Position numbers and translations under genes: made by a program
The notes under the pieces: model-generated
The model's input: only the letters and a program-made list of their open reading frames with translations
Database searches by the model: none
What the model was told of the DNA's origin: nothing
Part shown: positions 19,435 through 40,007 of the stretch, in pieces
Position numbering within the stretch: position 1 is the stretch's first letter
How the letters are laid out: every line of letters begins with the position of its first letter
Virus record (IMG/VR): IMGVR_UViG_3300037068_000062
Coordinates: 1 to 41,091 of that record
Strand: one strand, 5' to 3'
From: a virus
DNA: 41,091 bases

Positions 19435-20109
19435 TTAGGCCGCCGCGCCACCACCGATCCGGTTGCGCCCCTGATACCAGAACCCGTACGCGATCAGCAG
19501 TGCCCCGAAGATTGCCAACGTGCCGGCCTCGGGAACCGGCGTCTCTATAGCGGCCCCCAGCGAAGACAGCAGCACTGTGTTGTTGCCGCTGCACTGACCG
19601 GCGAGGAACGCCGTGTCGCAATTCGCCCCCGTAAAGTCGAGGTACTGGTAGCCCGATATGTCGATCGCGGTTTGCGCATCGGTAAAGCCGGCCGCAACCT
19701 CGTTGGTGCAGATCGCGCCCGATACGTTACACAAAAACGCTTGCCAGATGTCGGGGCCGGCTGTGCTGTTGCCGGCGATCAGCGCATCTATCCTATTTAC
19801 GTCGTGCAGCCCACTGAGGTCGAGCTGGACAAACGATCCGTCGGTAATCTCGCCATCCGCGAACCGTGAGTTCGTTAGACCCACCCCCTGCTCGTCGGGG
19901 CCGGCTGATTTGCCGAAGAGGTCCGGGTTGCCTGGGCCAAAGGCCATCGCAGTGATCGAGCCACCGTCGGGCGTGCTCGAATAGGTGTGTGAGGGGCCGA
20001 GGTCGCCAGTCGGATTTGAGAAGTCCCACAGCGCGTAGCTGCCGGCATAGGCCGGCAGTGCGAGCGCAAGCGCGACTGCAGCCGCACTTATTAACAGCCC
20101 TGTTTTCAT
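19435..20109 (-). CDS. Exported PEP-CTERM-like protein
   Basis: This 224-aa protein starts at the ATG at 20109 behind GGAGAT. A Sec signal (MKTGLLISAAAVALALALPA, cleavage near AYA-G) is followed by a beta-rich, Gly/Asn/Asp-rich domain with four Cys that resembles PEP-CTERM surface proteins. Residues 192 to the end have the tripartite signal: VPEAG, a hydrophobic span (TLAIFGALLIAYGFW) and a basic stop (YQGRNRIGG). Such tails are recognised by exosortase (EpsH/XrtA) in Gram-negative bacteria that make exopolysaccharide. The match to PEP is slightly off-consensus (PEAG). A host exosortase would be needed. Confidence 0.75.
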   Translation of the reverse strand: MKTGLLISAAAVALALALPAYAGSYALWDFSNPTGDLGPSHTYSSTPDGGSITAMAFGPGNPDLFGKSAGPDEQGVGLTNSRFADGEITDGSFVQLDLSGLHDVNRIDALIAGNSTAGPDIWQAFLCNVSGAICTNEVAAGFTDAQTAIDISGYQYLDFTGANCDTAFLAGQCSGNNTVLLSSLGAAIETPVPEAGTLAIFGALLIAYGFWYQGRNRIGGGAAA

Positions 20110-20215
20110 TAAGTTATCTCCGTTTGCGCGCCATGCCACCCATGACGCGGCCCTACGATAACCTCAAATAGCCAGCTAGGGCGAGCTGTTATTTTCCGGT
20201 TTTTCGCGCGCCCCC
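20110..20215. other. Short gap between PEP-CTERM and collagen-like genes
   Basis: No gene is visible. On the minus strand CAGC/GCTG can pair (about 20172-20188), without a clear T-run. The upstream gene's ribosome binding site lies at its left end. Confidence 0.4.
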
Positions 20216-21136
20216 TTACGGAACCACGTCTACGTTGTAGTTTGCGTCTGCCTGATTGACCTGAATGATGGCCATCGATCCGGGCTGAAGTGGGATGGTT
20301 ATGATTCCAGCTCCTACGATCGCCCCCGGCATTGACGCCATAGGCTTAGATGAGCCAGGCACCACCACCTGGATGGCGCTGCCGCCGGTTGGGTTGTAAT
20401 TGCGAATGCCTATCGCTTGGTTGCCCGTTAGTACGCCAGCTGGCGCGGTCACGGTTCCTGACCCGGTAAGGGGAATGATCGTCTGGGCATCAGATGCTTT
20501 GATCGTATAGCTGCCAGTGTGCGGTGCGACAGTGGGGACCATATACATAGGCCCCGTGGGGCCTGGGGCACCTGGGGCGCCGGCAGGCCCTGTGGCACCG
20601 GCAGGCCCAGCGGGACCCGTAGGTCCCGTTGCGCCGATGGGACCAGCAGGCCCGGCGGGGCCTGGCGTGCCGCCGCCGCCGCCGTCTGGCGGGCCGCCGC
20701 CGCCGCCGCCACCAATAACCGGCTTCAGCGCGGCGATAGCGTTGTCCCGAGTGCAGGCAAGTCCGCCAGGGCCAATCGCAGTGCATGTACTGATGACGAC
20801 CGTAGCCGCTATGCCGTCGTAGAGGACTGGTCCGACGTAGAGATTGCGATCTAGCGCCAACGACCCACCGTAACCGTCGTTGGTGAAATCAACCTTTAGC
20901 GCATGCGTTAAATCATCCGCGATCGTTGCCGTATAGTGCTGCCACGCACCACTCGAATGGAGTTTCTTTACGGTGACATTGGTCGCGGCGGCGCCGTCGA
21001 GCGATATCGCCGCGTTTGCGTCACCCTGATAGGCGTCTTCCGACAGGGAGACATCGAGGGTGTGGGTAGCCGCTTGAGCGTGGACACAAAGGCCCGCAGC
21101 GATGACAGCGCAGGCTGATGCTATTTTGAGTCTCAT
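20216..21136 (-). CDS. Exported fibre protein: xylan-binding-type CBM plus collagen repeats
   Basis: This 306-aa protein starts at the ATG at 21136 with a Sec signal (MRLKIASACAVIAAGLCVHA). Residues about 28-105 resemble the calcium-dependent xylan-binding CBM group (SEDAYQGDANAAISLDG, then NDGYGGSLALDRNLYVG). A Gly-rich linker leads to a collagen-like Gly-X-Y tract (GPAGPAGPIGATGPTGPAG... about 40 residues). The C-terminal beta-rich domain resembles small phage fibre tips. It would bind a glycan at the cell surface or on the virion. The combination of signal peptide, CBM and collagen is unusual. Confidence 0.75.
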   Translation of the reverse strand: MRLKIASACAVIAAGLCVHAQAATHTLDVSLSEDAYQGDANAAISLDGAAATNVTVKKLHSSGAWQHYTATIADDLTHALKVDFTNDGYGGSLALDRNLYVGPVLYDGIAATVVISTCTAIGPGGLACTRDNAIAALKPVIGGGGGGGPPDGGGGGTPGPAGPAGPIGATGPTGPAGPAGATGPAGAPGAPGPTGPMYMVPTVAPHTGSYTIKASDAQTIIPLTGSGTVTAPAGVLTGNQAIGIRNYNPTGGSAIQVVVPGSSKPMASMPGAIVGAGIITIPLQPGSMAIIQVNQADANYNVDVVP

Positions 21137-21156
21137 GAGTCCACCCATCTAGCGAA

Positions 21157-22239
21157 TTAGCCCACCACGGAACTGAAGAGTGAAGCCAGCATCACGGCTT
21201 TTGGCGTGCCCAATCCCGTGCAGGCATCGGGGCCGCTTCGTGCGCTGAACGCGCCATTGTCGCCCGAAATGATGTCGTTAAAGGCCGCCGGATTCTGCCA
21301 CAGCTTCGGCGAGACGAACCCGAGCTTGCGTCCAAACCCCGCGAAGAGGCCAGCGTAGAGCGGCGCTACCGCGCTGGTGCCGCCGACAACGATGTCCTGG
21401 CCCTGATAGATAATGTGATACCCGGTCGTGGGGTCAGCATTCGCGGCGACGTCGGGAACCATCCGCATGGGGCGACCCTGACCAAGCGGCGCCGTTGTCT
21501 GCCATGATGGGCGCGGGAAGTGCATCGAATAGCCACCGCCGGTCCCCTTCCACACTGTCTCAGGGTTCGACGGCATGGACATGTGTGGTCGGTTTGTGCC
21601 GCCACACCCGACTACGTAGGGGCACGAAGCGGGCGCGTCCACATTCGCGGCGCCCGCCCCGCCATCCGCAGAGCTATTGTCGCCCGATGCCGCGAAAGTC
21701 GGCATCCCTATCGACAACACAGCGACGGACGCCGTGTTATTCATTTGATCGAGCGCCGCGCTCCCCCACATGGCCTCGTCAGCGCCCCAACTGATCGAGC
21801 AGACATCGCAGCCGTCAGACGCGGCTTTGGCGACGGCGCGCGCTATGCCAAGAGCGTCGTTGTTCGCCCAGTACATTCGGATGATAGCCGCCTTGCCGGT
21901 CGCCATCGCGTAGGCCGCTCCGGCCAGCTGTATGTCTAGCGCCACCTCGATATCGGCGTCGTTGCCGGGGTTGTTGCCGGCCCCCGGATCAACCGAGACA
22001 TCAACGATCGTCGGGATCGGCAGCGGATTATGACTATTTCCGTACTTGAAAAACTGGTTCACGTCCGCCTGCATCCACCCGCCGCCCAGCTCGACGATCC
22101 CGATAACGCCGCCGCCCGGCAGATTGCGCGGCCAGCCGTAGGACAGGCAGAGGTGAACCACCCACCAAGGGATATCGTTGGTCGCCCAGATAGCACGCTG
22201 AGCGCCTGGCGGCCGAAGCTTGAAGTATGGCTTGAACAT
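21157..22239 (-). CDS. Sedolisin (S53) serine-carboxyl peptidase without propeptide
   Basis: This 360-aa protein carries the complete sedolisin signature: Glu98 and Asp102 (DIEVALDIQLA), oxyanion Asp187 (FAASGDNSS) and nucleophile Ser289 (GGTSAVAPLYAG). The calcium-site region FNDIISGDNGAFSA, with GPDACTGLGTP, closes the domain. These proteases are acid peptidases normally made as secreted zymogens with a propeptide of about 180 residues. Here both the propeptide and any signal peptide are absent. The ATG at 22239 overlaps the glycosyltransferase stop (TGATG). A virion-borne or intracellular protease is suggested (inference). Confidence in the family is high. Confidence 0.9.
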   Translation of the reverse strand: MFKPYFKLRPPGAQRAIWATNDIPWWVVHLCLSYGWPRNLPGGGVIGIVELGGGWMQADVNQFFKYGNSHNPLPIPTIVDVSVDPGAGNNPGNDADIEVALDIQLAGAAYAMATGKAAIIRMYWANNDALGIARAVAKAASDGCDVCSISWGADEAMWGSAALDQMNNTASVAVLSIGMPTFAASGDNSSADGGAGAANVDAPASCPYVVGCGGTNRPHMSMPSNPETVWKGTGGGYSMHFPRPSWQTTAPLGQGRPMRMVPDVAANADPTTGYHIIYQGQDIVVGGTSAVAPLYAGLFAGFGRKLGFVSPKLWQNPAAFNDIISGDNGAFSARSGPDACTGLGTPKAVMLASLFSSVVG

Positions 22240-23393
22240 CAGTGATTGTCCTTCCAGGCGCGCCACAGCTCTTCTCGCGTATCGGTGGTGTCTTCATCTC
22301 GGGACATTGCTATACGCCGCGACTCGTCGCGGAGCTTCACGTAGGCCTCGCTACCGTCGTCATGCAGTTGATAGATACCCTGATAATCACGCTTTAGGTG
22401 ACGTTGAGGATCAAATCCGAATTGGGCTAGCAAAAGATGCTTCTGGTTGTAGCCACGGTCCCACTTTCTCCCATGAAAGTTGTGGAATACGCTACCTGTG
22501 ACGACGCCAACGTTACGCCTAACGTGTTTTTGGCATAGCTCGCGCCAGTTCCTAACCATGGCCTGATAATTCGGATGGAGATCGCCCCGCATCATCTGAT
22601 CGTCGCGTGGGTTCTCCATTAAGGCGTGCGCCATATGCCAGTCCCCACCACCCCAAATCGCGAAGTCCAGCAACCCGCCGACGCTATCCCACGCTTCCCT
22701 TGTGCCGGCCCACGCCAGCCCTGGCCACAATCGGGGCGGCCCAGGCTCTTGGTAGACGACGCCTTTGGGCTTTAGCGCAATATTGATCGTCTGTAATTGA
22801 GCGGTTTCCTGATCGCTCGTTGTCGTGACTGTCCCAGTAACATCAAAGGTCTGCGCGGCAGAGTGGTGATGGACGAACCCCACCCCATCGGCGTGCGGGT
22901 AGTCTTGTGGCATTACCTCGTAGTTCGGCGATAGGTCGCGCGCGTGCGAAAACATCTGCACGAATGAGTAGTGCTGGAGCTTCTGGATCGTCTCGCCGAC
23001 CCAGTTGGGTCGCACGAACGTCACATCGCTGTCGAGCCAGGCCATCTGCTGCCAGTCGTAGGGCAGCGTCATGCCGGCCGCGACGTTGACCATGTTCTCC
23101 TTGATCCACAGCTCGCTCCGGGTGCGCAGCGGAATGTAGCGGTGCCGGAATTTTGGATCGCTGCCGATGATGCCGCAATTGGCCGGCGTACCATCGAGGC
23201 CGCTATCGGCGAACACGAATTCGCGGCGATTAAAGGCCGCCTCGACCAAGATCACGACCGCGCCGGATTCGACAAAATGCTTTATCGCTCGCGTGGTGTG
23301 CTTGTAGCGGCTCGTCCAGCGCCAGGGGTTATAGACTGGAACGATTACGTAAAGCGGCTCCCTGACTACATCTCGGTTAATAAGGACTGTCAC
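22239..23393 (-). CDS. Glycosyltransferase, GT-A fold type
   Basis: This 384-aa protein starts from the GTG at 23393, which lies one base after the preceding small ORF's stop; a GTG at 23432 would add 13 residues. It opens with PLYVIVPVYNPWRW, the first strand and nucleotide-binding loop of GT-A enzymes, and has AWLDSDVTFVRPNW with a DxD metal motif (residues 121-123). GGGDWHMAHALM near residue 265 is a typical acceptor-site ED/DW-like region. It would transfer sugar from a nucleotide donor, to host surface glycan, phage DNA or a virion protein. Coupling to the sedolisin suggests joint function. Confidence 0.8.
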   Translation of the reverse strand: MTVLINRDVVREPLYVIVPVYNPWRWTSRYKHTTRAIKHFVESGAVVILVEAAFNRREFVFADSGLDGTPANCGIIGSDPKFRHRYIPLRTRSELWIKENMVNVAAGMTLPYDWQQMAWLDSDVTFVRPNWVGETIQKLQHYSFVQMFSHARDLSPNYEVMPQDYPHADGVGFVHHHSAAQTFDVTGTVTTTSDQETAQLQTINIALKPKGVVYQEPGPPRLWPGLAWAGTREAWDSVGGLLDFAIWGGGDWHMAHALMENPRDDQMMRGDLHPNYQAMVRNWRELCQKHVRRNVGVVTGSVFHNFHGRKWDRGYNQKHLLLAQFGFDPQRHLKRDYQGIYQLHDDGSEAYVKLRDESRRIAMSRDEDTTDTREELWRAWKDNH

Positions 23394-23394
23394 A

Positions 23395-23487
23395 TTATGG
23401 ACCCCACCCAGTCGGCTTGGTGGCCCAGACACAGGACATCATCCGGGGGGGCGAGGCCCCGCCGAACCGGGTGAGGTTGGGTTTCAT
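23395..23487 (-). CDS. Candidate 30-aa peptide before the glycosyltransferase
   Basis: The minus-strand ATG at 23487 to TAA at 23397-23395 encodes MKPNLTRFGGASPPRMMSCV and ten more residues. The stop lies one base before the glycosyltransferase GTG, so it may act as a translational lead-in. A GGGACGGAT stretch precedes the ATG. Protein function is doubtful. Confidence 0.35.
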   Translation of the reverse strand: MKPNLTRFGGASPPRMMSCVWATKPTGWGP

Positions 23488-23502
23488 TTTATCCGTCCCG
23501 TT

Positions 23503-23704: not shown

Positions 23705-23778
23705 CTGGGACTCCTTCGTTTGGAACCCCAGCACGATACGGCGAATCGGCTGCGCCGACTGTGAGCGAGATCACACAC

Positions 23779-24423: not shown

Positions 24424-24435
24424 TCGGCTACTCCC

Positions 24436-24699: not shown

Positions 24700-24765
24700 G
24701 GCACACCTCCTAAATAGTTGATGTGCATTAGCATATTTTTGCGCTTGACAACAGCTCGGGCGGAG

Positions 24766-27624
24766 TTAGCGAAACAGTCGGAACCCGCCGCCGGGAACCT
24801 GCAAGGGCGGGGGTGGCGTGACGGCGCTCGACGCTTGCACCGCACCAAGGTCGATGCTGGGTGAACCCGACCTAGTGCGCGGCTGGCCGTACATATCGGG
24901 GCCAGGCGTAAGATAGCCCCCCACATAAGAAAAATCGACGCCGGCTCCGATCGCGGGTGAATCGTGACCGCACAGCGCGACCGTGCAGAGCCGCCAATCC
25001 TCCGAGGTCGAGAACACAGCGCCGATGTTGGGATGGACAAACACGCCCGTCGAGTGGCTGCCGTCGGGGTCAAGCGCGAAGCACGTCGCGTTATTGCCTG
25101 GCCCGCAGGTCATCGAGTCGCCGCCGGGAAATGGTATCGCCGTTAGATCGTTTCCCATGGCAAATTCCGGCGCGGGCGTAAAGCTCGCATGCCCGGCATA
25201 GTTTGACGGAAGGTCGCTGCCGTTGTTCCCCGCATTTCCGCTGTAGGGCGGCACCTCAGGCGGTATGTAGGAGTTGTTGATTCCGGTCCAGTAGGTCAGC
25301 TGCTGACCAAACCCCACCCCGAGATTGTTGTGCACAGTGGCCGGGTCGGTTGGGCCGTACACCCCATGCTTGTCGCTCTCGAGCGCGCTACAGAGCGGAC
25401 AAACGCTAATGCCAGGACCGATGAGCGTATTGTTGTACCAAGCGCCACCATAATGCGAGTAGGCACCGAAGGCGCCATCATGAGCTGCCGTCGCCCAAGT
25501 TCCCGTTCCACGGAAGATAGCCAGAACGTTATGAAAGATACCCGCATCACCGCACGATAGCCCGGCGCCACCTGAGCCCGTCGAGCCCCACGCGCCACCG
25601 GAATCGAGGATGTCATTCGCTAATATGGCGCCATTACCGTTATAGTTTCCGGGTCCACAGTCGGACTGGCCGACAGCTCCTCCATTAATGGATTGCATCT
25701 GGAAGCGCTGGACGGTCTGCCCCCAGTCATCTTGGGCATACGCAAAGCCCTTCGTTGTTGGATTTGAAAACCCAACGTTCGCGTATGGCTGATTTGAAAA
25801 TATCGCCACGCCCTTACTCGGGTCATAACGAAGCGGATCGCTCGCGGGATTCATGTTGTCCTGGAAGCTATCGCCCGGCGCAACGGTAAACTCCGCCCAA
25901 AACGGAGGATAAGATAGACGGTTGTTAGCAATGCCCCCGAGCATCATGGACCCCGATCCGGGGATAACTAAAGCCCAGCCGGTGTCGCTCGGCTGATTCA
26001 ATTTCATTGAGGCAAAGATTTGCACAGCTTCGCCTCCGGCCCCGTTTACGTACTGCGTTTGCGCAGCACCTCCCCACCATAGGTGAGTATAAGTAAACCA
26101 ATCATGCTGTGGTATGGTGGCTATCGTAGCGGGGTCGGTCCACCAAGTATCGAGCTGGTGCGGCACGACGTTTGCCTTGGACGAGTAGCCCAGGGTGCCC
26201 TCATAGACCCACACACAACTACCGTCGCTCGTGCTGCCGCCAAACGCCGTTGCGCTTGGTGCGGTCGAGCCTGTCGTGCAGGTAATAGCGGGGTACGTCG
26301 GTTGAGCTGACTGCCGATAAACGTTTCCCGCCGCCGTGACGACGTACTGGATCGGGAAGAACGGCGCGCCCGACGCCCAGCTAACCGGATCATCAACATT
26401 CATTCCAGTGAAGGTGTTGTAATCCACCGAGGTCAGGCACACCCAGGTCACGCCGCCATCCGAGACTTGCGTCGCGCCATTCCAAGCCGCAACGCCAGCG
26501 GTGTTTTGCGGTGACCCGAAATAACCTCCAGGGGCCACCGTGCCGCCTACATTGGCAGGCGATGGACACGGCGCGGTTCCGAAGTGCCCAGCGTAGCTTG
26601 AGTTGTTCCCCGAAGTGCCGCCGCCTTGGGGAGCAACCGCCCACAGGTAGAGCGGCTGGCCATTCGTAAAGACCCCGGTTGTGGGGTCGTAGGCTGGCCC
26701 CGCCAACACCCGGTCATCGTTCGGAAAGCTTGTGTAGGGCGTGTTTTGCTGCCACGCCGGCGCGTCGGCGACGTTCTGTACCATCGGGTGCCCCGGCCCT
26801 GGCGATGGATTCCCCCCCACTGTATTCCACGGCAGATAGCCGGGTATCTTGGCGTCGAGCGTGGCGCTATCGGTAAAGTCGAAGGTCGTGACGGTCGAGG
26901 TGCCGCTATAGTTTTCAACCAGCGCGACCGGGACGGAGCCGGGTAGATAGTACCCAATGCCGGTCTGCCCCGTGTCAGGAGGCCCGTAGATGCCCGTGCT
27001 GTAGATGCCCGTGCCGGTGCCGGGGCCGCCGCAGGGATAATGCGCGGTAGCGGGCGCGGCGGCCACTGGTGCGCCCCATGTCGTGGTGTCGGCGTTCCAC
27101 ACCGGGCCGCCGCCGCACCCGCTCGTGTCGGCAATGTCAGGCGTCACCCATATCTGCAGTGGGTTTGTATCCAGGTTAACCGCGACGGCCATTGTGTTGC
27201 CCGCGGTGTAGGCGAAGGGCGCTGAATCGTTCGCCCCAAAAGAATAGTTAAATCTGATTACTGGAGTGGTGATGTATGTACTTACATACCCAGCATTGTC
27301 CGGCCCAGCCCCCAGCGTGGCGGTCAAGCCGACGGTCTGTGACCAGCCGGGCCTTGCAACGCCGACCCCAGCCCTGAAGGCCACCGCTGCCGCCGAAGGG
27401 ATGACGGCCCGAAAGTACCACTGGCCGTGGTACTTAACGGTATTAGCCTGGCAGACGGCGGATTCATTGTAATTGGATACCGGCGCCTGGGAGACCGTCA
27501 GCCCCGCCCCGCTTATCACGATACTAGGATCGCAATCGCTGGCGTTGAAGGTCGTGGTCTGCGCCAGCGCCGGGCACGCCAACAGCGTCGAGCACAGCAA
27601 ACCGAGCGCTGCGATCCAGCGCAT
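24766..27624 (-). CDS. Exported beta-rich/beta-helix surface protein (952 aa)
   Basis: The ATG at 27624 overlaps the upstream stop (TGATG). A Sec signal (MRWIAALGLLCSTLLACPAL, cleavage after ALA-Q) is followed by a SPRY/ConA-like domain (YHGQWYFRAVIPSAAAVAF..., residues about 40-190) and then Gly/Asn/Thr-rich repeats. The C-terminus has a SPAIGAG and GQPRTRSGSPSIDLGAV pattern that commonly closes right-handed beta-helix proteins such as polysaccharide lyases. A depolymerase or adhesin that acts outside the inner membrane is likely. No catalytic residues can be fixed. Confidence 0.7.
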   Translation of the reverse strand: MRWIAALGLLCSTLLACPALAQTTTFNASDCDPSIVISGAGLTVSQAPVSNYNESAVCQANTVKYHGQWYFRAVIPSAAAVAFRAGVGVARPGWSQTVGLTATLGAGPDNAGYVSTYITTPVIRFNYSFGANDSAPFAYTAGNTMAVAVNLDTNPLQIWVTPDIADTSGCGGGPVWNADTTTWGAPVAAAPATAHYPCGGPGTGTGIYSTGIYGPPDTGQTGIGYYLPGSVPVALVENYSGTSTVTTFDFTDSATLDAKIPGYLPWNTVGGNPSPGPGHPMVQNVADAPAWQQNTPYTSFPNDDRVLAGPAYDPTTGVFTNGQPLYLWAVAPQGGGTSGNNSSYAGHFGTAPCPSPANVGGTVAPGGYFGSPQNTAGVAAWNGATQVSDGGVTWVCLTSVDYNTFTGMNVDDPVSWASGAPFFPIQYVVTAAGNVYRQSAQPTYPAITCTTGSTAPSATAFGGSTSDGSCVWVYEGTLGYSSKANVVPHQLDTWWTDPATIATIPQHDWFTYTHLWWGGAAQTQYVNGAGGEAVQIFASMKLNQPSDTGWALVIPGSGSMMLGGIANNRLSYPPFWAEFTVAPGDSFQDNMNPASDPLRYDPSKGVAIFSNQPYANVGFSNPTTKGFAYAQDDWGQTVQRFQMQSINGGAVGQSDCGPGNYNGNGAILANDILDSGGAWGSTGSGGAGLSCGDAGIFHNVLAIFRGTGTWATAAHDGAFGAYSHYGGAWYNNTLIGPGISVCPLCSALESDKHGVYGPTDPATVHNNLGVGFGQQLTYWTGINNSYIPPEVPPYSGNAGNNGSDLPSNYAGHASFTPAPEFAMGNDLTAIPFPGGDSMTCGPGNNATCFALDPDGSHSTGVFVHPNIGAVFSTSEDWRLCTVALCGHDSPAIGAGVDFSYVGGYLTPGPDMYGQPRTRSGSPSIDLGAVQASSAVTPPPPLQVPGGGFRLFR

Positions 27625-30600: not shown

Positions 30601-31484
30601 GTGTTAGGTGGAACGAACAGGCGATAGTCCTTTGCCGCATTACCGACCGGCGACAGATGCGCCCCGCCAAACCCCGATACCGGGCCGTCAATATAGGGTT
30701 GCCGCACATCAGCCCAGAAACGATAGCCGGCAAGAGCGGGCGTGCCTGTACCGCCAGGCGCATAGGTCATTAGGTGCACATAGATTTGCGTCGTCAACAA
30801 CCCATGCGGCGCCAAGGTCGCGACCGGAGGGACGGCGCTTTCGATCATATCAACGCTGAACGAGTAGACATCGCCCGCGTCGCCAACAAGGTGCGTCCGC
30901 ACCTGCCTGATGTTGGCCGCATTGGCAACATTAAGCCAAGACGCGAAAGTGCGCCCGGCCTCGTATGCATCGTATGTCGAAACCGGCGCTACCACGCCGA
31001 AATTGTTCGGATATAATTCAGTTGTATAGTTGCGCGTGGCCGTTGGGTAAGACCCCGCGACAGACGTGATCGCAACCGCTTGGGTGCCACCATTTGCCGC
31101 GATCCCGCCAAAGGTCGGGCGCAGCATAAAGGCCGCGAACATCAGCGAGCCGTCTGGCCAGTAACGACAGGCATTAGCCGGGCTCATCGAGAATGGCTGC
31201 GCTACACCGCCGACGGCGAATGCAGGTCGATATCCGTGCGGTACGGCGCCTTTTGGAAACGGCCAGCCAAACGTCCGCGTCGGTACGCCCGCCACTGTCA
31301 CATTTGTAGGATCATCATTGACCAGAGTCATAGTCGCGCTGTAACCCAAGGGGGGCGGCGGGCCGACCGCAGCGCCGCCAAAGAACCCGAACCCCTGGCG
31401 TGCCTCAGCCGCCTCAGGCAGCCCCACCGCGAGCGCTGCCGCCGCGGTCGTCTGCAGTAATTGTCGGCGCGTCAAATTGTTCAT
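27624..31484 (-). CDS. Tat-exported large protein with alpha-toroid-like region (1286 aa)
   Basis: The ATG at 31484 overlaps the previous stop (ATGA). The N-terminus MNNLTRRQLLQTTAAAALAV carries a twin-arginine motif (TRRQLLQ) and an AEA cleavage site, so the protein should be exported already folded. After a beta-rich N-terminal half (residues 40-650), the region around 780-900 is helical (HDMAHAAEFASWAYLRTGR; YAVSHYGSL; LRWMAWAALLYPHD) and resembles alpha/alpha-toroid polysaccharide lyases or hydrolases. A C-terminal beta domain ends it. A glycan-degrading role is inferred; no catalytic residues were identified with confidence. A Tat signal on a phage protein is rare. Confidence 0.7.
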   Translation of the reverse strand: MNNLTRRQLLQTTAAAALAVGLPEAAEARQGFGFFGGAAVGPPPPLGYSATMTLVNDDPTNVTVAGVPTRTFGWPFPKGAVPHGYRPAFAVGGVAQPFSMSPANACRYWPDGSLMFAAFMLRPTFGGIAANGGTQAVAITSVAGSYPTATRNYTTELYPNNFGVVAPVSTYDAYEAGRTFASWLNVANAANIRQVRTHLVGDAGDVYSFSVDMIESAVPPVATLAPHGLLTTQIYVHLMTYAPGGTGTPALAGYRFWADVRQPYIDGPVSGFGGAHLSPVGNAAKDYRLFVPPNTTPANGFNYTVGGTAHNPPNWPFSLGGYPVTAALTGSAFVADVAPITWTGTVTSTYDNGAYTAVYISTSPVGLYGGMIVQGGPLDGAICRAPGSPLFLEGGGWGSYSGPITFTGGLVTVSSGTAPTKGQLVTDTTGNLPVPTKVYGPGEWGPSTDPPIVQTTARPWTATISSEAMLGGYASVVWSAEPPITDGNSSPKSCAVYLEANTFGGLTDTNGNSYVAEGGPIWLQQGGAIFAGADSGTRLIPASPTGSGTMVTAPVSQPGMRLALGGAGGEWVFFQGNGALSTDVPLRSGAVDQVAWGTCQVIPPFAIPGDPVYPPIVSGPTGANGEVFPYNGWNPNGGTGGYPGPGLYQYWPYCMGANDANDWLVSGGIGHYLSGTPFWAGSDFYCGDRTSYFYGLMAALGVGCWLGDFVLSASPSVLPNTGNNLTPSGGTRAYLGMTTTIPLFNGENNWSWPGYTAPAARVRGIKPNHDMAHAAEFASWAYLRTGRPELLDRLLAEALYAVSHYGSLQNYTDIPGKNYYNALTPVQMSQVRADGNKLRWMAWAALLYPHDESGLNNTNYSASGTFDGTHCDQYLLDLMEDNFQLIVDCVDPQYSTTYVPIPANPGATFTATISGNTLDVSGAGLTGTLAVGHCIKDVAGHIPPNWFITALGTGSGGAGTYTVNEIVTGNVPNAATLSVASEAMFCGAGALLCNDKDLFAEYGGNYYWWPNTFCESVGLWTAAPVAATAGSAAAAACIRNWATCSQAFADRRGGRINEWPYFFGSTAGGNNGNFATLGGLDTELTCIFRALGYPSGFGGFSSCQSFAVTPGPSSRAFEVFNWSSPTGSPMPIANGDALVLPAPPAPSQPASPYFIVADLQDAGGGSFNLNLKNPDGSYVAPGAATGIWTGNWLYRSNGYDGTNGTNGHNLTAQPWGTLNYNVLKRVMFAWAHAMIAAGLMTDTGGGYIANANADLNARFAGSGAINWIGGTWGGTYWAGVNIMDHF

Positions 31485-33274
31485 GGCGTTAGCGCAAACC
31501 GCAGCGATCGAGTGCCGGCATAGGTGTTGCTCATCGTCGTCCACGTTGAGCCGCCGTCGATTGAAAGCACCGCCTTAGCGTTGGCGTCGATCGATTGCAA
31601 GGTGTTGTGATCGTCGTACACCCAACCAAATCCGCCGGCATCGTTGTTGCCGCTCAGATACCAGACGTATTGCGTGCCGGAAACCGCGGTCCACGCGCAG
31701 GCGAACGCCAGGTCAGTCGCTACATAGGGCAGCGACGCCGAACTTATGTTGGCGCTACACAAGGGGCTGCCGGGCGCAGTCCCGGTCCACGGCGCGATCG
31801 TGACCGTCAGGTCCGCGGCCCCGCCGCTGCGGGTCGCGTCGCAATTGTTGTCTGACGTGACGCCAGAACACGCCTGAAAGGCCGGCAGCACGATATGGCC
31901 ACGCGCCCCGCTGCTCTGCGCGGTAAAGACTTCGCCGACCTGTACGCCGGCGCTTCCGATATTGCCCCAATCGTTGTAGCCGGGCGCATCGCCCGCAATC
32001 ACGTAATCCTGCTCGATCGCGCCTGTGGGCGGCGAAGGCGGCGCGGTATCTGGCAAACCCGCAATCGCAACCGACGACGGACACGGGTCGAGCGAGTTGA
32101 GCGCGGCCCCGGTAAAGCTCAGTTCAGCAAGCGAGAAGTTTGATAGCCCCTGATTGAAATAGCCGGGGTTGGTGCCGAGCGCGCTAAGCTTGGCTCGGTA
32201 GCGCAACGGCGTAAATAAGTAATGGTTATTACCGTTGAGCCAGACCGTGTGGACCTGGAAGGGCTGGCCGCCGCACGAATAGGCGCTGATCTGTCCCTGG
32301 CTAGTCCAGGTGGCACTCTCTAAATTGTCCGATGCAGGTGCGGTGGCGTAATACATCGGGGTGCCATTGCAGTACGCGCACAGCGCCCCCCACGTCACAT
32401 AGACTGTCCCAGATCGCTCCAAGATGCCGACCGCCTCGACGCTATCGACGATGATGGGGCCAGGAGAACCGACCGTGTCGGTATAGCCAGGATTTAATTT
32501 CCAAACGCGGACGTTGAAATTACCCGGCCCCGGAACCCCGGCATCGCTGGCGACGACAAACGCCACGCCGTCGGCACGCTGCAGGAAGCCGAAAGTGTCG
32601 ATCGGTTTAACCAGGATGCCACTAAAGGTCGCCGGCCCGACGATCGTGCAGCCGGCCCCGCTGGTCCCATTGCCGTAAAAATAGGGTGTCGGACAGGTAA
32701 CGACCTCGATGCCAACCACCGCCGTCGATTCAAACGTCGGGAACCAGCCGACATAGAGGCCCGTCGAGGTGTTGTAGAGCACCTGCAGCGCCTGACAATC
32801 AGGATAGATGTTGCCGCCGGAGGGCGTGCAGACGGGGAATTGCGTCGGGGTTATAACCGTCCCGAGATTGACCGGGTTGCCGCTCTTGAAGTTGTCGGTC
32901 TCGTAGGCAAGGAAGCCGCCCCAGGTCTTGCCCGCCGTTCCGATGTTGTAGCCGGTTCCCCAATCCTCGGTGTAGAAGATAAATTTGTGCGCCGGACAGT
33001 TGGGCTTGGTGCTGCCGTCCGAATTGTCGCACTGTAGGATCGAGCCGTCGGACCCCGCGATCTTGCGCCAGCCGCTGTCCCAATAGGCAACCTGCGCGAC
33101 ATCCGGCGGCGTCGAGCTGCCGTCCAACCCGCTGAAATTGTTAACCGTGACCACCGGACTAGCCGCGCCACCAAAACCAAAGAACGATCGCGCGCCAAAG
33201 CCGCTGGCCCCCGTTACCAGCACGATCGCCAGTACCGCGAAGTGCAGCCGCCTGATAAGACTCCTGATAAGCAT
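31481..33274 (-). CDS. Exported beta-propeller-type protein (597 aa)
   Basis: ATG start at 33274. The signal segment MLIRSLIRRLHFAVLAIVLV is followed by a beta-rich body with recurring W/Y-G and aromatic-Asp motifs (QVAYWDSGWRKIAGSDG; KFIFYTEDWGTGYN; YVGWFPTFES), reminiscent of five-bladed propellers of glycoside hydrolase clans such as GH43. The last 120 residues (DLTVTIAPWTGTAPGS; YVWYLSGNNDAGG) form a separate domain, similar to those on phage tail proteins. It has several paired Cys, consistent with a periplasmic or outer location. The family assignment is tentative. Confidence 0.65.
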   Translation of the reverse strand: MLIRSLIRRLHFAVLAIVLVTGASGFGARSFFGFGGAASPVVTVNNFSGLDGSSTPPDVAQVAYWDSGWRKIAGSDGSILQCDNSDGSTKPNCPAHKFIFYTEDWGTGYNIGTAGKTWGGFLAYETDNFKSGNPVNLGTVITPTQFPVCTPSGGNIYPDCQALQVLYNTSTGLYVGWFPTFESTAVVGIEVVTCPTPYFYGNGTSGAGCTIVGPATFSGILVKPIDTFGFLQRADGVAFVVASDAGVPGPGNFNVRVWKLNPGYTDTVGSPGPIIVDSVEAVGILERSGTVYVTWGALCAYCNGTPMYYATAPASDNLESATWTSQGQISAYSCGGQPFQVHTVWLNGNNHYLFTPLRYRAKLSALGTNPGYFNQGLSNFSLAELSFTGAALNSLDPCPSSVAIAGLPDTAPPSPPTGAIEQDYVIAGDAPGYNDWGNIGSAGVQVGEVFTAQSSGARGHIVLPAFQACSGVTSDNNCDATRSGGAADLTVTIAPWTGTAPGSPLCSANISSASLPYVATDLAFACAWTAVSGTQYVWYLSGNNDAGGFGWVYDDHNTLQSIDANAKAVLSIDGGSTWTTMSNTYAGTRSLRFALTP

Positions 33275-33280
33275 CCTAAA

Positions 33281-34198
33281 TCAACAGGAGCCATGAACCG
33301 TCGTTAGATACGCGCAAACATCGGTTTGCATATTGGCAACATCGGTCGCGGACAATCCGGCCCCTATAGTGGCAAAGGCAAATATGACGTTAACAAGCGG
33401 CACGCCATGAACCCCAGCTGCATTGACAGCCATAATATCCGGGGTCAGCGTCGGAACGCCGGTTGCGGCGTGCGATGCAGTCGCCGCCAGCGTCCCATTA
33501 TGGTAAATCTCTTGCGTTGTGTGATCTAGCCTGTTGCATACAAAGAACCCGGCCGTCGAGTTAATGGTGGTAGCGGTCGTCTGATCAACGTCCGCGTCGT
33601 TGACCGAGCAATACGTGTTGTTGTCGGTGTACCGCGGCAGCAAACGCAGCGCAGCCGTACCTGAGCCAGCCTGTTCAGCGCTGCCCATATATCCAGCGAT
33701 CCCAGCGACGTTTGTCAACGACCAAACCGAAAAGTGCGCCGAATCAAGCTGATAGTTGGTGAGGCTCGATAGCGCCGTCGCCACGTCTAAATAGGAACCC
33801 CCGCTGGTATCTGCGGTCGAAAACCCTTGGTCCGCTGTGAAGGATAGAGTGGCGGGATATCCGTGCTGGACTGCCGGATTGGCAGTCCCACATAGATTGA
33901 ATCTAGCATCCGCCTCGGTATCAGAGGCCAGGATGTAGATGGCGTCAAACTTGCTGCCACAGCCACTTGCGCCGGACAAGTCGCCCGTAATCAAACCATG
34001 GGATATCATCGCGCAGACCAACGTCGTGATTGCCGTAGCGTTTGGTGCTCCGGTGTTGCGCGACAGATAGTTGTTTGCTGCGGTCACACAGGCCGGAGTG
34101 CCGGCGCTAAACCCATAGGAAGGCCCGCCGACATTGCCAACTTGCGCCGCCGCCGGGCTCGCCAACAGCAGCAGGAGTGCAAGGGCGCGCCAGATCAT
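33281..34198 (-). CDS. Exported LamG/jelly-roll-like fibre protein (305 aa)
   Basis: ATG start at 34198, in ATGA overlap with the upstream stop. The Sec signal MIWRALALLLLLASPAAA is unmistakable. The body contains FDAIYILASDTEADARFNL, then FTADQGFSTADTSG, and TQEIYHNGTLAATASHAATG, a pattern I recognise from phage structural proteins with a concanavalin-like jelly roll. Its end (IGAGLSATDVANMQTDVCAY) also fits. These domains usually sit on virion fibres and bind glycans. The signal peptide is unusual for them. Six or more Cys suggest an oxidising location. Confidence 0.7.
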   Translation of the reverse strand: MIWRALALLLLLASPAAAQVGNVGGPSYGFSAGTPACVTAANNYLSRNTGAPNATAITTLVCAMISHGLITGDLSGASGCGSKFDAIYILASDTEADARFNLCGTANPAVQHGYPATLSFTADQGFSTADTSGGSYLDVATALSSLTNYQLDSAHFSVWSLTNVAGIAGYMGSAEQAGSGTAALRLLPRYTDNNTYCSVNDADVDQTTATTINSTAGFFVCNRLDHTTQEIYHNGTLAATASHAATGVPTLTPDIMAVNAAGVHGVPLVNVIFAFATIGAGLSATDVANMQTDVCAYLTTVHGSC

Positions 34199-35112
34199 GA
34201 GCCGAACCCGAGCAGGTATGCCTTAGCCGCGCCATCGTTGATCAGCTTTAGCGAAATTCCCGAGCCTGCTAGGTTTCGTGTCCCGGTATAGCCATCGGCG
34301 CTGACCAGAGTCGCGGCGCTTACGGCGGTTCCCGTAACCGTCACCTTGTTTGCCGTATCGGTAATGATGTCGATTTGGCAGCTCGTCCCTGCTGTCGGAA
34401 CAATCGCCGCTGGGATCGTCACCGTATAGGCAGCATTATTATAGAGGACGGTCTTACCGCAATCAGTCGAAAGCAGGGTGTCGGTCGATCCCGCCGTTAC
34501 TGTGCGCTCGCTGCCAAGAACGGCGGCGAAAGTGTTGACTCCCTGATGGTTCCACGTGCCGCTAGAGATGTCGTTGCCGCTGTAGGTGTTGTTCCCGTTC
34601 AGCAGTCCAATCGTCGCGCCGGATGTGCCGATCGCATGGCCGCCGAGCGGCACAAAAGCCGAATAGGTTGCGTTGTCGAGATCGGCGATGGCGACGCAAG
34701 TGTACGGCGGGATCACTAGCGAGCCCGCGTTATTGATGTTCGACGAACTGGTCAGCGTGTCGGACCCGGCTGCAGTGCAGAGGTTAAAGCCAAACCCAAC
34801 GCCGAAGCCTGATGTCGCGACCACCGGCAAGGTGTCGGTCATCGCGCCGCTGTTCGTGCGGTTGACTGTCAGTGCGGCGTCGCTTGCCTGGATCGTATAA
34901 CTCGCCCCCGCTTGCGGATTAACCGCATCCGTCAATTTCAATCCGCCCGAATATAGTAACCCGTTGCCAAGCGGCGCGACCGGCTGATATGTCCCCGGCG
35001 CAACTGCGACCCCCTGAGCAAAGGCGAGATGGACGCACAGGAAGATTAACGCCCACAGGGCGCCACTGATCGGGAGCCCAAACTTTAAGCCGCGCGCCAA
35101 GCCGTGATCCAT
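34195..35112 (-). CDS. Exported tail-fibre-like protein (305 aa)
   Basis: The ATG at 35112 overlaps the upstream stop (TGATG). A long n-region (MDHGLARGLKFGLPISG) and hydrophobic core end in HLAFA-Q, a probable Sec signal. The rest is a beta-rich, Thr/Ser/Gly-rich sequence with short repeats typical of trimeric fibre shafts (SYTIQASDAALTVNR; GNNTYSGNDISSGTW; AAYTVTIPAAI). The C-terminal LAGSGISLKLINDGAAKAYL ends in GFGS, a common tip motif. It is probably part of a tail or a surface fibre. Confidence 0.7.
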   Translation of the reverse strand: MDHGLARGLKFGLPISGALWALIFLCVHLAFAQGVAVAPGTYQPVAPLGNGLLYSGGLKLTDAVNPQAGASYTIQASDAALTVNRTNSGAMTDTLPVVATSGFGVGFGFNLCTAAGSDTLTSSSNINNAGSLVIPPYTCVAIADLDNATYSAFVPLGGHAIGTSGATIGLLNGNNTYSGNDISSGTWNHQGVNTFAAVLGSERTVTAGSTDTLLSTDCGKTVLYNNAAYTVTIPAAIVPTAGTSCQIDIITDTANKVTVTGTAVSAATLVSADGYTGTRNLAGSGISLKLINDGAAKAYLLGFGS

Positions 35113-37976
35113 CAGTTTGATCCATACATTGAACAAACGCCGCCGAAGGTGTTCGTTGTTGAGCGCAGCCGCGCGCCGGTCAGTGCAGCGTTACTTCCAG
35201 TCCAAGAACTGCCGGCATCATAGCTATAGATAAAGCCGTCTGTGTTGTAGGTATAGTCCAACGCCCACTTTGTTTTCTTGGGGGCCGCAGTCCCCGCTGG
35301 ATAATCTATCGTGATGTCAAGAGACCCATACCCGGTTGTGCCAGCAAGAGCGTATGAGCCACCCAAAAGATCAGTCGCGGTCGAAGTCCCGACGGCGCCG
35401 CTGTTTGATGCGGACCCCCCAGCCCATAACCCAGCTACCGAATAAGAGCTGGCCTGCCACGTGCTGCCGCCGGTCTCGACCTCAACCACAAATCCCGTGC
35501 CGGCGGCTGAGGGCAAAATGCCGACGCATTTAAGCTGCAATGAATTGTAGCTGCCGGCCGGGAAGTCCGCGCCGGCAAAGGTTAGCACCGAGTCAACGCC
35601 CGAGACGGCGGTCTTGGTCACGATGGCCCCGCCGACATTCGGCTGGCAGCCAACGACGCCGCCGTTGTTGTACAGGTTTTGCCCCGAGGGGCAGGTGCCG
35701 GTCACGGTTGTTGTGCCCGCAGCAACATCAGTCGCCGCACCGCCGATCGCGGTAATGACACCGGCCGATGCCGTGATCGTTGAGCCGTCCACCTTGACGC
35801 AGCCTGGAACCGATGATGAGGCTTGGGCACAGGCGGGCGCTGAGTCGGCGCGCGCATAAAAAAGCGAGGTGCCGTTGGTCGCAGTCGATGCGCCGACTGT
35901 TCCTGTCGGGTTAGCTGGCGTCGGCCCATTAACCGCAGCGCCTCCAGGGAAAGTTCCGGCACGGTCCTCGGGCTGCCACAACCGCACGCCCGAGACACCA
36001 TCGCCGTTATATTGCACGTTGCCTTGCTGTGGATCGTATAGGCCGATTGTCTGATTGGTCGCGCTATCGCTATTCAGCTTGTAGGTCATATAATAGCGCG
36101 TCCAACCAAGGTTGCTCTGCTGCACCCCCGCGGCAAGAAGTGTCGCGCTCAGAACATTAATACGGAAAAGCGAGCCATCGGAGGCTATCGCCACTTCAAC
36201 GTATTGCCCAGCAAGCGGCCCGTTCACGGCGAGGTCCACATAGCGGGTCGAGCCCGCCCCAAGCGGTGCGCCGTAGACGCTTATCGTGCGCACGCCGTTG
36301 GCGAACGTGTTGCTCTGCGTGATCCTATGCAGAGCATTTACCGTCGAGTCCTCGACCAGCGTCGTCGCCGCCGAGGCAGCGCCGCTTGCGTTGGTGCCGG
36401 TCCCCGTCGTGAATGTCGCTTGCGCCGCCGTCCAGCCGCTCGTCATCCCCGAGCCGCCAGTCAACCCATTAGGGTTGGGTTGGGTGAATGTAACGCTGTT
36501 GCCGAACTGGATGTTGCCGCCGGCCAGGACCGTGGCGTCCACCGTGTCGAAAGTCTCGGCCACACTCGATAGAGTCGGCGGGTTCAGGTATTGCGCCCCC
36601 CAATTTATCGTCGAGCCGCCCGTCGTCGGGTCTTGAACAAAGGTCATGCGGAACTTTTGGCCGATCCCGATGCCGAGTTGCTGCGGTCCCGGCAATGTGC
36701 AGCCCGCGCTCACACACGATGACGCCAGCAGAGGGGCGATAATGTTCGTGTATCCCGACAGATCGGGCTCGCTAAAGGTTGTGCTCGTCAGGGTCAAGCC
36801 GAAGGGACTGGTTGTCTGACCGCCGGTCAGCGGCGTCGATTGTGGCGCCAGGATATCGCGGGTGTAGTCGTCAACGTACCACGTGGCGGCAGCGGGCGGA
36901 GCGGCTTGAATCGTACATCCAACACAGCTGCCGCCAGCAGCTACCTTAAAGACACCGAGATCGCCGCCCTCAGCGTCCACTCCCGCTATGGTTACGTTGG
37001 TGTTGGTTCCAGAAAACTCGACGTTGGCGGATGGGACGCCGGTATGGGTCGCGGAGTCCCAGGTGTGCCACCGGCCGCCCGAGATCGAAACGTTCCTCAC
37101 GCCAGTAAGAGAGATGCAGGCTGTCGTCTTATCACATAGATTCCCCGTCATGCTTAAATCTTCGACGCCATTCAGGACGATGCCGGGGTAGAAATCCTCC
37201 ATTCTATTGCCGTCGATATGCGCCGTTACAAAGCTAGAATGCACATATATCGAACCAGAAGTGCAGAGCCCCATGACGTTATCTCGGATGATAAAATCCG
37301 AAACGAAGCCGCTGTTGGCGTAGTCGCCGCGATAGCAGTAGCCGCCCGGCTGATAGATGGCAGTGTCGTGCAGCCACATAAACTGCGAGTAAATGCCCGT
37401 CGGCCCAGGAAAGGCGCTGTCCGAAAAATTATCGACGCCATGATGCGAGCAATTCGTCAGCATCATGTGACTGACTTCGGGGGCGACAACATTAAATGCC
37501 GTGATGCAGCTCTCGGTCCCGCCGCCAACGCGATTTCCGTAGATTGCGAAATCCTTGAGGACGCTGTGATCCTGCATAGCGAAGAAGCCGGCGGGCTGCC
37601 CGTTCGGTTGCGTCGGGAAGGTGCAGGCGGTGGTGCAGTGAACGGCAACTGTCGCGAAGCTTATGTCGGCGACGCCGCTGCCCGGATTGACGAAGTTTCC
37701 CGGCCCGGCGATGACGTGTTCGGACGGAACCGTTATCTGAGACCGCACGTCAAAGGCGTTATTTGATAACGTCGGCTGCAGCCAGACATTGCGGTTGTTG
37801 GTCGTCGCGGCCTGGATCGCCGCCGTGTCGTCGCCGCCCGAGGGCGTCAGAACAAAGTAGCTAGACGTAACATTGATCGGAGGCCCGTAGGTCTTGGGCC
37901 ACGGGGCCGCGATCTGCGCTACCGCGGCGCCGCACCAGGTTACCGCCAGTGCCAGCAGTAAGAGAAATCGGTTCAC
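35112..37976 (-). CDS. Exported tailspike-type beta-helix depolymerase (954 aa)
   Basis: GTG start at 37976 overlapping the upstream stop (TAGTG). Signal MNRFLLLLALAVTWCGAAVA-Q. Residues about 45-330 form a right-handed beta-helix of the pectate-lyase-3 type, opening with SGGDDTAAIQAA (the standard DDTxAIQ motif) and continuing with repeated N-x-x-I/M turns (FIIRDNVMG; AHIDGNRMED; LSMTGNLC). Middle regions are jelly-roll, carbohydrate-binding-like domains, and the last 200 residues are a fibre-type beta domain. Such proteins degrade host capsule or exopolysaccharide. A signal peptide on a tailspike is unexpected. Confidence 0.8.
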   Translation of the reverse strand: MNRFLLLLALAVTWCGAAVAQIAAPWPKTYGPPINVTSSYFVLTPSGGDDTAAIQAATTNNRNVWLQPTLSNNAFDVRSQITVPSEHVIAGPGNFVNPGSGVADISFATVAVHCTTACTFPTQPNGQPAGFFAMQDHSVLKDFAIYGNRVGGGTESCITAFNVVAPEVSHMMLTNCSHHGVDNFSDSAFPGPTGIYSQFMWLHDTAIYQPGGYCYRGDYANSGFVSDFIIRDNVMGLCTSGSIYVHSSFVTAHIDGNRMEDFYPGIVLNGVEDLSMTGNLCDKTTACISLTGVRNVSISGGRWHTWDSATHTGVPSANVEFSGTNTNVTIAGVDAEGGDLGVFKVAAGGSCVGCTIQAAPPAAATWYVDDYTRDILAPQSTPLTGGQTTSPFGLTLTSTTFSEPDLSGYTNIIAPLLASSCVSAGCTLPGPQQLGIGIGQKFRMTFVQDPTTGGSTINWGAQYLNPPTLSSVAETFDTVDATVLAGGNIQFGNSVTFTQPNPNGLTGGSGMTSGWTAAQATFTTGTGTNASGAASAATTLVEDSTVNALHRITQSNTFANGVRTISVYGAPLGAGSTRYVDLAVNGPLAGQYVEVAIASDGSLFRINVLSATLLAAGVQQSNLGWTRYYMTYKLNSDSATNQTIGLYDPQQGNVQYNGDGVSGVRLWQPEDRAGTFPGGAAVNGPTPANPTGTVGASTATNGTSLFYARADSAPACAQASSSVPGCVKVDGSTITASAGVITAIGGAATDVAAGTTTVTGTCPSGQNLYNNGGVVGCQPNVGGAIVTKTAVSGVDSVLTFAGADFPAGSYNSLQLKCVGILPSAAGTGFVVEVETGGSTWQASSYSVAGLWAGGSASNSGAVGTSTATDLLGGSYALAGTTGYGSLDITIDYPAGTAAPKKTKWALDYTYNTDGFIYSYDAGSSWTGSNAALTGARLRSTTNTFGGVCSMYGSN

Positions 37977-39439
37977 TACTTCGTGTCACAATGCGTGGTT
38001 GAGAGGCAGTACATCGCCACGCGCCCGCCCACTCCGACCGAGACAGCCGCGTTCGCCGATAAGCTATCGAAGGTGCCGCCCGACACCGGGTAAACCAGCA
38101 AGGTGTTGGCGCCGTTGTTGGCGACCATCTGCCGTTCTCCTAACACCGGCGTTTTCTGCAACACCCCCTGACCTGAGCCGACCGTCGATACTTCGGTCCA
38201 AACCGCCGTCAGTACCGTTGCGGTGCCCTGATTGGTGCCGGCAGCCGATATTCCGGTTGCGACCGTTGCGTTGCCGCCGCCCGTCGCCGCCTGGAAAGTT
38301 GGGGCCACCCCCGCGCCGTTGCTGGTCAGCACCTGCCCGGTCGTGCCGACACCCGTGTTGCCCAGCACTGATCCGGTATTGTTATAAAGCACCCCGTAAT
38401 TTGTGCCGGACGCAATCGCGGTAGTGCCAACCGTCAACCCACCGTCAACCAGCCCCCCTAAGCTGTCCCACACTGCAAGATGCGCATTTGTCTTGGATGC
38501 AGTCGAGGCCGAGACGACTTGCGCTGCCGAGCCGCCCGACCCAGACAGCGGTAGGCTGGAGCCGATCGTCGTTGCCCCGCTGGCAACCGCCACTTGACCG
38601 TTGGTCGTTCCGGTAATGCCGCTCCCGCCACCGCCGCCGGCCTGGAAGCTCGGGGCCACCCCCGCACCGTTGCTGGTCAGCACCTGCCCGGCAGTGCCGA
38701 CCCCGGTGTTGCCTAGCACCGAGCCGGTGTTGTTAAACAGAAGCCCGTAATTTGTGCCCGATGCGATGGAAGTCGTGCCGACCGTCAGGCCGCCGCCGCC
38801 CGCTGGCGTGCCGGTGACGACGATATTGCTCCCGTCGAGGCCGATATATCGCGTCGGCGTGCCCCCGCCGGTCGCCGTCAACAGGTTGTTCCGCGCGGTT
38901 GCCGCGTTAGCAACGTCGGAGAGATTGCTTGCCCGAGCAAGGAAGGTCGATGTGCTGTAGCCGCAATCAATCGCCGTGTTAAGTGTCCCGCCGGTGTTGT
39001 TCGAGCACAGAATGTTATTCGTCGTCGTCGCGCCCGAGCCCGTCATGTTACCTGAGCCGGCCGGCGAGCCGGTGACGGCATTGTTACCAGAGTCAAACCC
39101 CAGATAGCGCGTTGGCGAGCCGGCGGAGACCGTCCAAGCGCCGCTGCCTAGCGTGCCGCCGTTGATCGTCGGGCTGGTCAGGGTCTTACTCGCCAAAGTC
39201 TGCGCGGTCGTCAGGTCCGCCAGGGTATTGGCGGCGATGTATTCCGTGGCGCTATTCGGAAAGACCGTCGAGGCCGAGATCGCGGGGATGCGCAACCCAC
39301 TCCCATAAGGGGCCGTGGCCGTAGGACAGCCGTAGACATACGCCTCTAGCGTTACGCCACCGGACGGGCAGGCCGCGAAGGCAAGCGAGCCCCAAAGTGC
39401 GGCGATGCCAAAGCTGATAACGAATAACGATTGACGCAT
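37976..39439 (-). CDS. Exported tail-fibre protein with internal repeats (487 aa)
   Basis: ATG start at 39439 behind GGGGGAAC. A Sec signal (MRQSLFVISFGIAALWGSLA, cleavage near AFA-A) is followed by a Gly/Thr/Asn/Ser-rich fibre shaft. Two copies of a unit of about 50 residues (TVGTTSIASGTNYGLLFNNT, then GSVLGNTGVGTAGQVLTSNG) lie near residues 225-275 and 345-395; shorter units (PTRYLGFDSG; PTRYIGLDGS) repeat earlier. The C-terminal domain (residues 400-487) resembles phage fibre tips. The repeats match well-known GQVLTSNGAG units of large phage fibres. Codon choice matches the operon. Confidence 0.75.
   Translation of the reverse strand: MRQSLFVISFGIAALWGSLAFAACPSGGVTLEAYVYGCPTATAPYGSGLRIPAISASTVFPNSATEYIAANTLADLTTAQTLASKTLTSPTINGGTLGSGAWTVSAGSPTRYLGFDSGNNAVTGSPAGSGNMTGSGATTTNNILCSNNTGGTLNTAIDCGYSTSTFLARASNLSDVANAATARNNLLTATGGGTPTRYIGLDGSNIVVTGTPAGGGGLTVGTTSIASGTNYGLLFNNTGSVLGNTGVGTAGQVLTSNGAGVAPSFQAGGGGGSGITGTTNGQVAVASGATTIGSSLPLSGSGGSAAQVVSASTASKTNAHLAVWDSLGGLVDGGLTVGTTAIASGTNYGVLYNNTGSVLGNTGVGTTGQVLTSNGAGVAPTFQAATGGGNATVATGISAAGTNQGTATVLTAVWTEVSTVGSGQGVLQKTPVLGERQMVANNGANTLLVYPVSGGTFDSLSANAAVSVGVGGRVAMYCLSTTHCDTK
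38291..38440. repeat. Direct repeat copy 1 in fibre gene
   Basis: About 150 bp, closely similar to 38642-38791 (roughly 85 percent by eye), encoding a GTNYG...GQVLTSNGAG fibre unit. It is a likely substrate for recombination that changes fibre length. Confidence 0.75.
38642..38791. repeat. Direct repeat copy 2 in fibre gene
   Basis: Second copy of the 150-bp fibre repeat, about 200 bp from copy 1 in the same orientation and reading frame. Confidence 0.75.
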
Positions 39440-39995: not shown

Positions 39996-40007
39996 GGAAC
40001 TCGAGGT

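Follow-up and report, generated by a model that had tools for sequence, protein, structure and literature searches.

Particle assembly in tailed phages normally takes place within the host cell, and their fibres are assumed to fold in the reducing cytoplasm. The described proteins closest to those reported here are T7 gp17 and the podoviral adaptor fibres (PF03906, Phage_T7_tail; N-termini solved for T7, HRP29, Carin 1 and LME-1). The likeness lies in the slot after the internal virion proteins and in a docking domain found in sister phages of the 41,091-nucleotide viral contig analysed here (hereafter, the window). The sister phages differ from T7-type fibres by adding a predicted cleavable Sec-type signal, many cysteines in even number and a CxC pair that is gained or lost as a unit, whereas the window proteins differ in that no docking domain could be detected in them. 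In HTVC034P and Lederberg, which are Pelagibacter phages, the gene order around the LPD38 gene and the fibre slot is that of the window. However, their fibre carries no signal and belongs to a type that is poor in cysteine and shows no cysteine parity.

Export of phage proteins is itself well known. The adsorption protein pIII of filamentous phages is a virion component made with a signal sequence and assembled at the membrane. It resembles the present lineage in being a signal-bearing adsorption protein, but tailed phages assemble in the cytoplasm and exit by lysis. Rz1 lipoproteins and receptor-blocking lipoproteins are likewise phage-encoded and exported, and further examples are the SAR endolysins (PMC3556154) and Lom (PMC12309495). 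These endolysins, lipoproteins and Lom share with the proteins studied here a phage origin and the use of host Sec, but they serve lysis, exclusion or membrane roles and are not fibres with docking domains. A search of the open-access literature with exact terms found no published description of tail fibres with Sec signals. We know of no tailed phage in which periplasmic fibres dock to particles assembled in the cytoplasm.

The window, IMG/VR contig IMGVR_UViG_3300037068_000062 (41 kb), comes from a soil phage that is, judged by comparison with HTVC034P, Lederberg and the podovirus MW202898, a podovirus. Profile matches identify a large terminase, a RecT-like annealing protein and a helicase; the genes from portal to tail tube lie off the record. 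The LPD38 gene and those cassette genes given below with both end coordinates are on the minus strand. The C-terminal part of an LPD38 internal-virion protein (40008..41091; Pfam LPD38 E 9e-29) runs off the record and marks the fibre slot, being equally placed in HTVC034P and Lederberg; in these two phages and in MW202898 a tail-fibre gene comes next after LPD38. The slot of the window opens with a small signal-less protein (39504..40007, a stop-to-stop frame whose start is uncertain), and the signal-bearing run then begins with F1, placing these genes directly after the internal virion protein gene, as is typical of T7-type adaptors. A weak, signal-bearing homologue of the small protein occurs in one related locus (phmmer E 0.0017, L155 only), and a similar protein was seen by eye in L092; both of these signal-bearing proteins are probably its homologues.

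The initial annotation described an operon of nine exported proteins of fibre or depolymerase type in this slot. All nine signal-bearing starts exist at the places given, on the minus strand, eight of them Sec-type and one (31484) Tat-type. As an operon of nine the description holds in part: seven genes (F1 to F7) are contiguous from 24766 to 39439, but the run is then broken by three signal-less genes, after which two more signal-bearing genes follow. F1 (37976..39439; Sec signal MRQSLFVISFGIAALWGSLAFA ahead of ACPS, score 12.3) has fibre-like repeats, a weak tail-fibre PHROG match (E 0.0057) and 6 cysteines in the mature protein. F2 (35112..37976; MNRFLLLLALAVTWCGAAVA ahead of QIAAP, score 12.5; 18 Cys) resembles beta-helix, NosD-like proteins of depolymerase type, with a NosD match under the cut-off (E 0.0015), and its C-terminus weakly resembles a signal-bearing protein of the related locus L005. 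F3 (34195..35112; signal ending LAFA ahead of QGVA, score 10.8; 4 Cys), which overlaps F2 by TGATG, shares 49% identity over its C-terminal 230 residues with the first signal-bearing fibre of L005 (BLAST). F4 (33281..34198; MIWRALALLLLLASPAAA ahead of QVGN, score 10.5; 8 Cys) has a homologue in L121 (E 1e-7) that lies just upstream of a signal-bearing adaptor fibre and has a signal recognised by eye. F5 (31481..33274; 14 Cys) has a weaker Sec signal, with a score of 7.2 and predicted cleavage near the junction of GFG with ARS.

F6 (27624..31484; 17 Cys) is the Tat-type member. It begins with a TRRQLLQ motif and scores 5.2 with the Sec scorer; its matches to Pfam TAT_signal (E 0.003, 17.9 bits against a cut-off of 22.7) and NCBIfam TIGR01409 (E 0.03, 14.7 against 16.7) are below threshold. 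Its N-terminal domain is weakly rhamnogalacturonan-lyase-like (PcRGLX_1st, E 0.017). F7 (24766..27624; MRWIAALGLLCSTLLACPALA ahead of QTTT, score 8.0; 16 Cys) is a large fibre-like protein with a TGATG overlap with F6. The interruption consists of a transmembrane protein starting at 24240 (score 10.8, not counted as a signal), a protein without signal judged glycosyltransferase-like by eye (22239..23432; score -4.5; zero Pfam or NCBIfam matches), and a kumamolisin-like (S53) protease (21157..22266; phmmer E 1.7e-53 to kumamolisin 1t1e). The protease is present as the catalytic domain alone, without signal or pro-domain, between exported proteins. The penultimate member (20216..21136; Sec signal score 12.3; 2 Cys) combines collagen-like repeats with a CBM60 domain (E 2.3e-11, 44.5 bits against a cut-off of 28.2) and matches a tail-fibre PHROG (E 4e-10). 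The last (19435..20109; MKTGLLISAAAVALALALPAYA ahead of GSY, score 9.6; 4 Cys) has a C-terminus like a PEP-CTERM sorting tail, with a VPEAG motif, a transmembrane segment and RNR seen by eye and a sub-threshold match to PF07589 (E 0.057, 14 bits against 20.7). The label of fibre or depolymerase thus suits some members (CBM60 with collagen, and the weak NosD, lyase-like and PHROG matches), but the rest belong to no family. Searches of an isolated-phage collection gave zero homologues for F1, F2, F3, F5, F6 and F7; F6 also had zero direct relatives among viral contigs and zero relatives by sequence in the PDB.

The N-termini were assessed with a home-made scorer. It had been calibrated on 44 known signals of E. 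coli and, at a cut-off of 7, recovered 43 of the 44 in leave-one-out. The eight Sec-type window proteins score between 7.2 and 12.5 and have n-, h- and c-regions with an AxA-type site, whereas most cytoplasmic window genes score below 2, though the transmembrane protein at 24240 reaches 10.8. Among spurious ORFs of the window, 3/140 reach the cut-off from the first start and 9/140 when the best of many early starts is taken, and among annotated structural genes of four control phages the figure is 1/55. For spurious ORFs this amounts to 2-6%, and the earlier observation of the signals is confirmed. Furthermore, five starts (37976, 35112, 34198, 31484 and 27624) share bases with the stop codon of the gene before, and that at 33274 lies a few bases past one. 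Since these overlaps fix most N-termini independently of the signals, those N-termini do not depend on which start was picked.

Cysteine numbers are usually even in proteins that are oxidised in the periplasm. Disulphide-type cysteines had been proposed for many of the nine, and the mature Sec proteins of the window contain 6, 18, 4, 8, 14, 16, 2 and 4 cysteines, all even; the Tat protein F6, with 17, is the only odd count among the nine. As a Tat protein, F6 would fold before export. The same pattern is seen in relatives. Complete signal-bearing adaptor fibres have 6-20 cysteines, even in 39/42, and after clustering at 50% identity the count is even in 40/43 clusters (p 1.5e-9), or in 38/43 if only cysteines after the docking domain are considered. 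The CxC pair within the docking domain behaves as a unit (both cysteines present in 47, both absent in 11, a single one in 0). Cysteine density is 1.79 per 100 residues in signal-bearing fibres versus 0.30 in signal-less T7-type fibres of relatives, which show no parity (11/29 even). Parity also extends to other signal-bearing proteins of the signal-bearing phages (29/31 even), compared with 36/72 for their ORFs without signals. Because the signals recur in relatives and even cysteine counts accompany them, the sequences argue strongly that the signals are functional and that the proteins are exported to the periplasm or beyond; as evidence for cleavage and an oxidising location the cysteine counts are indirect.

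To place the window among related phages, an LPD38-domain profile was used to collect 80 related viral loci. In 48 distinct LPD38 rows the downstream gene was readable: 36 encode a signal-less T7-type fibre, 10 a signal-bearing protein and 2 something else. Signals thus recur in the LPD38 slot of relatives, and the pattern extends beyond this one contig, which answers the suggestion that related phages be searched for a comparable operon. In a maximum-likelihood gene tree, the ten signal-bearing rows and the two others form one clade (support 98/98) nested within signal-less phages, and the window pairs with L005. Because the clade is single and nested, the export trait appears to have arisen once in the LPD38 gene tree, either in place of an ordinary fibre or by modification of one. 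Several relatives have runs of signal-bearing genes too: L126 has six such genes, and L102 and L090 have several each; we read the operon style as common to the window and its sister cassettes, with the contents shuffled. Apparent signals in L016 and L031 were rejected as false positives inside an ordinary adaptor protein. It should also be noted that another fibre-region protein of a related phage (L111:4485-5828) has a Tat-like start (MNRRELLAGAAMLAGAGQANA).

In five of the ten signal-bearing rows (L008, L010, L014, L021 and L024), the signal peptide is followed by PALPD(T/S/A) and then by a domain that aligns with the signal-less T7-type adaptor (hhalign E 2e-7). The signal-less adaptors match PF03906 in 4/10 members and a solved tailspike N-terminus at E 5e-25; the signal-bearing type has no direct PF03906 match. 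An AlphaFold model of the signal-bearing adaptor is of moderate quality (mean pLDDT 66, core strands mostly >80). Its best PDB matches (Foldseek; VIA Z 8.1-7.2) are podoviral, namely the fibre adaptors in the tails of LME-1, HRP29, Carin 1 and T7; a Z near 8 is indecisive alone, but most top structure rows are podoviral tail adaptors, in agreement with the sequence result. On profile comparison and predicted fold, the N-terminal domain of the sister phages is a T7-type adaptor docking domain.

The generality of this arrangement was examined using patterns inside the docking domain, so that the 54 viral loci recovered were not chosen for a signal. A signal is present in 51/54, some of which are near-duplicates and not all independent. 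The three exceptions begin where the mature protein would start (MTAIPALPDSERR, MTVPTLPDSERR and MPSPVAVPALPDTERR). One signal-less member of the family, L157, has 9 cysteines compared with 1 and 2 in the other two, and is possibly a recent loss of the signal. Among T7-type adaptors of other relatives, 0/51 have a genuine signal, the single scorer match lying inside the domain. The signal sequence itself drifts, while the residues that follow are conserved. We also considered whether signal-bearing phages carry a second, signal-less fibre elsewhere in their records, and none was found: a search of 36 whole records with a signal-less adaptor profile found no second docking domain, one record matching at its own signal-bearing adaptor, and both positive controls matched. 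The isolated-phage collection gave zero matches to the signal-bearing adaptor. In the window, the profile that finds the controls has no match, which leaves room for a strongly diverged domain or for one in the part of the genome off the record, and in the nearest relatives (L005 and L011-L013) the domain is not detectable.

We consider it probable, with moderate confidence, that these genes form the tail-fibre cassette of a podovirus lineage whose fibres are synthesised as precursors for secretion and attached at lysis. We also lean, slightly less firmly, towards a particular route in which fibres cross Sec, acquire disulphides in the periplasm and dock at lysis, which would be a two-compartment assembly in a tailed-phage lineage. 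The fibres would pass through Sec (one through Tat) and then lose the signal, judging from their sequences; the even cysteine counts and the coupled CxC pair suggest that disulphides would form in the periplasm. In most relatives, removal of the signal would expose the T7-type docking domain at the N-terminus of the lead protein, as sequence and fold comparison indicate. Capsids and tails would be built in the cytoplasm, and because particles are built there, exported fibres would have to join at lysis, when mixing of the compartments may allow mature fibres to dock on released particles. Late addition of fibres is chemically plausible, as known from P22 and T7. The remaining cassette proteins, including most of those in the window, may be additional subunits of fibres or branches, proteins that bind carbohydrate, or depolymerases, and may either join the particle or act free in the lysate; this is the least certain step.

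In sister phages the docking domain is conserved, immediately follows the predicted cleavage site and has no second copy in the records searched, so the economical reading is that the signal-bearing protein is the fibre. For the window, where the domain is not detectable, virion attachment is argued by analogy, and the main rival is that the products are secreted and act off the virion, binding or trimming surface polysaccharide, or masking the receptor against adsorption to debris and superinfection. We regard this as the less likely but a serious possibility. It shares the well-supported export (signals and cysteine data), and the CBM60, beta-helix and lyase-like domains suit binding or cutting of polysaccharide; some Bradyrhizobium prophages, moreover, carry membrane acyltransferase-like genes (by eye) beside the exported fibre gene. 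However, in sister phages the signal precedes a conserved docking domain, the sole one in their records, for which a protein that is only secreted would have no use; the genes also sit in a late structural cluster. The initial proposal that the products act outside the cytoplasm is therefore supported as far as export goes, but the suggested roles in polysaccharide remodelling or superinfection blocking are not favoured. The sister-phage evidence favours virion fibres at least for the lead gene of the slot. By position and clade, the nine window proteins could be virion parts, or else soluble secreted proteins, and several of them may well have a role off the virion.

The N-terminal segments could also be uncleaved anchors that tether the fibre to the tail, or particles to the inner membrane, in keeping with their retention in many diverged phages. 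This is improbable, as the segments have positively charged n-regions, short h-regions and AxA sites, and drift while the next residues are conserved. Natural versions lacking the segment begin at the mature position, the even numbers of cysteines point to a compartment that is oxidising, and one window member is Tat-type. That host secretion genes were captured by chance, or that the contig is chimeric, is very improbable. Some members do resemble bacterial secreted enzymes (CBM60, PcRGLX and the PEP-CTERM-like tail), but the architecture recurs in dozens of viral contigs and in Bradyrhizobium prophages, in the same LPD38 slot of a supported clade, and on this recurrence we rejected both chimera and chance capture.

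If fibres are indeed attached from the periplasm, assembly would be completed at lysis, and the range of hosts would be tied to their Sec, Tat and Dsb systems. Progeny released together could swap fibres, and receptor-binding proteins stabilised by disulphides would be possible in a lineage that is common in soil. The Bradyrhizobium prophages, which carry the signal-bearing fibre for example in B. cajani 1010, strain Arg816 and STM 3843, make this export model directly testable.

Hosts were sought in one scan over 84,980 genomes. Of those with the signal-bearing adaptor, six are Bradyrhizobium and one is a MAG labelled Salinibacterium. The latter holds one related phage on a 43.6 kb contig (L132, SCSV01000188.1), whose placement in this MAG is probably a binning error. 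Among 266 Bradyrhizobium genomes, nine encode the full-length signal-bearing adaptor, all with signals; L197, a distant adaptor from a different genome within the order, has none. The window's LPD38 lineage is also represented in one Bradyrhizobium genome (E 5e-153), in a prophage (G169) where no fibre gene follows the LPD38 gene. The lineage lives at least partly in Bradyrhizobium, with related soil bacteria as probable further hosts. Since both the LPD38 lineage and the adaptor occur in Bradyrhizobium genomes, the window's own host is probably Bradyrhizobium or a relative. Not all Bradyrhizobium phages show such export: the isolated phage ppBjS10J-1 shares fibre repeats, but its fibres lack a signal. 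In L128, L129 and L130, membrane proteins resembling O-acyltransferases or glycosyltransferases (by eye) adjoin the exported fibre gene, as may be compared with seroconverting phages.

Two further features of the window were noted. The large terminase gene (541-3048) contains an intein-like insert with a weak LAGLIDADG-type match. A lysis-type region (18344-19175) encodes a holin-like transmembrane protein, a lipoprotein-like ORF of Rz1 type and a small exported cysteine-rich protein (18646..18921, minus strand; Sec signal score 9.2; 4 Cys).
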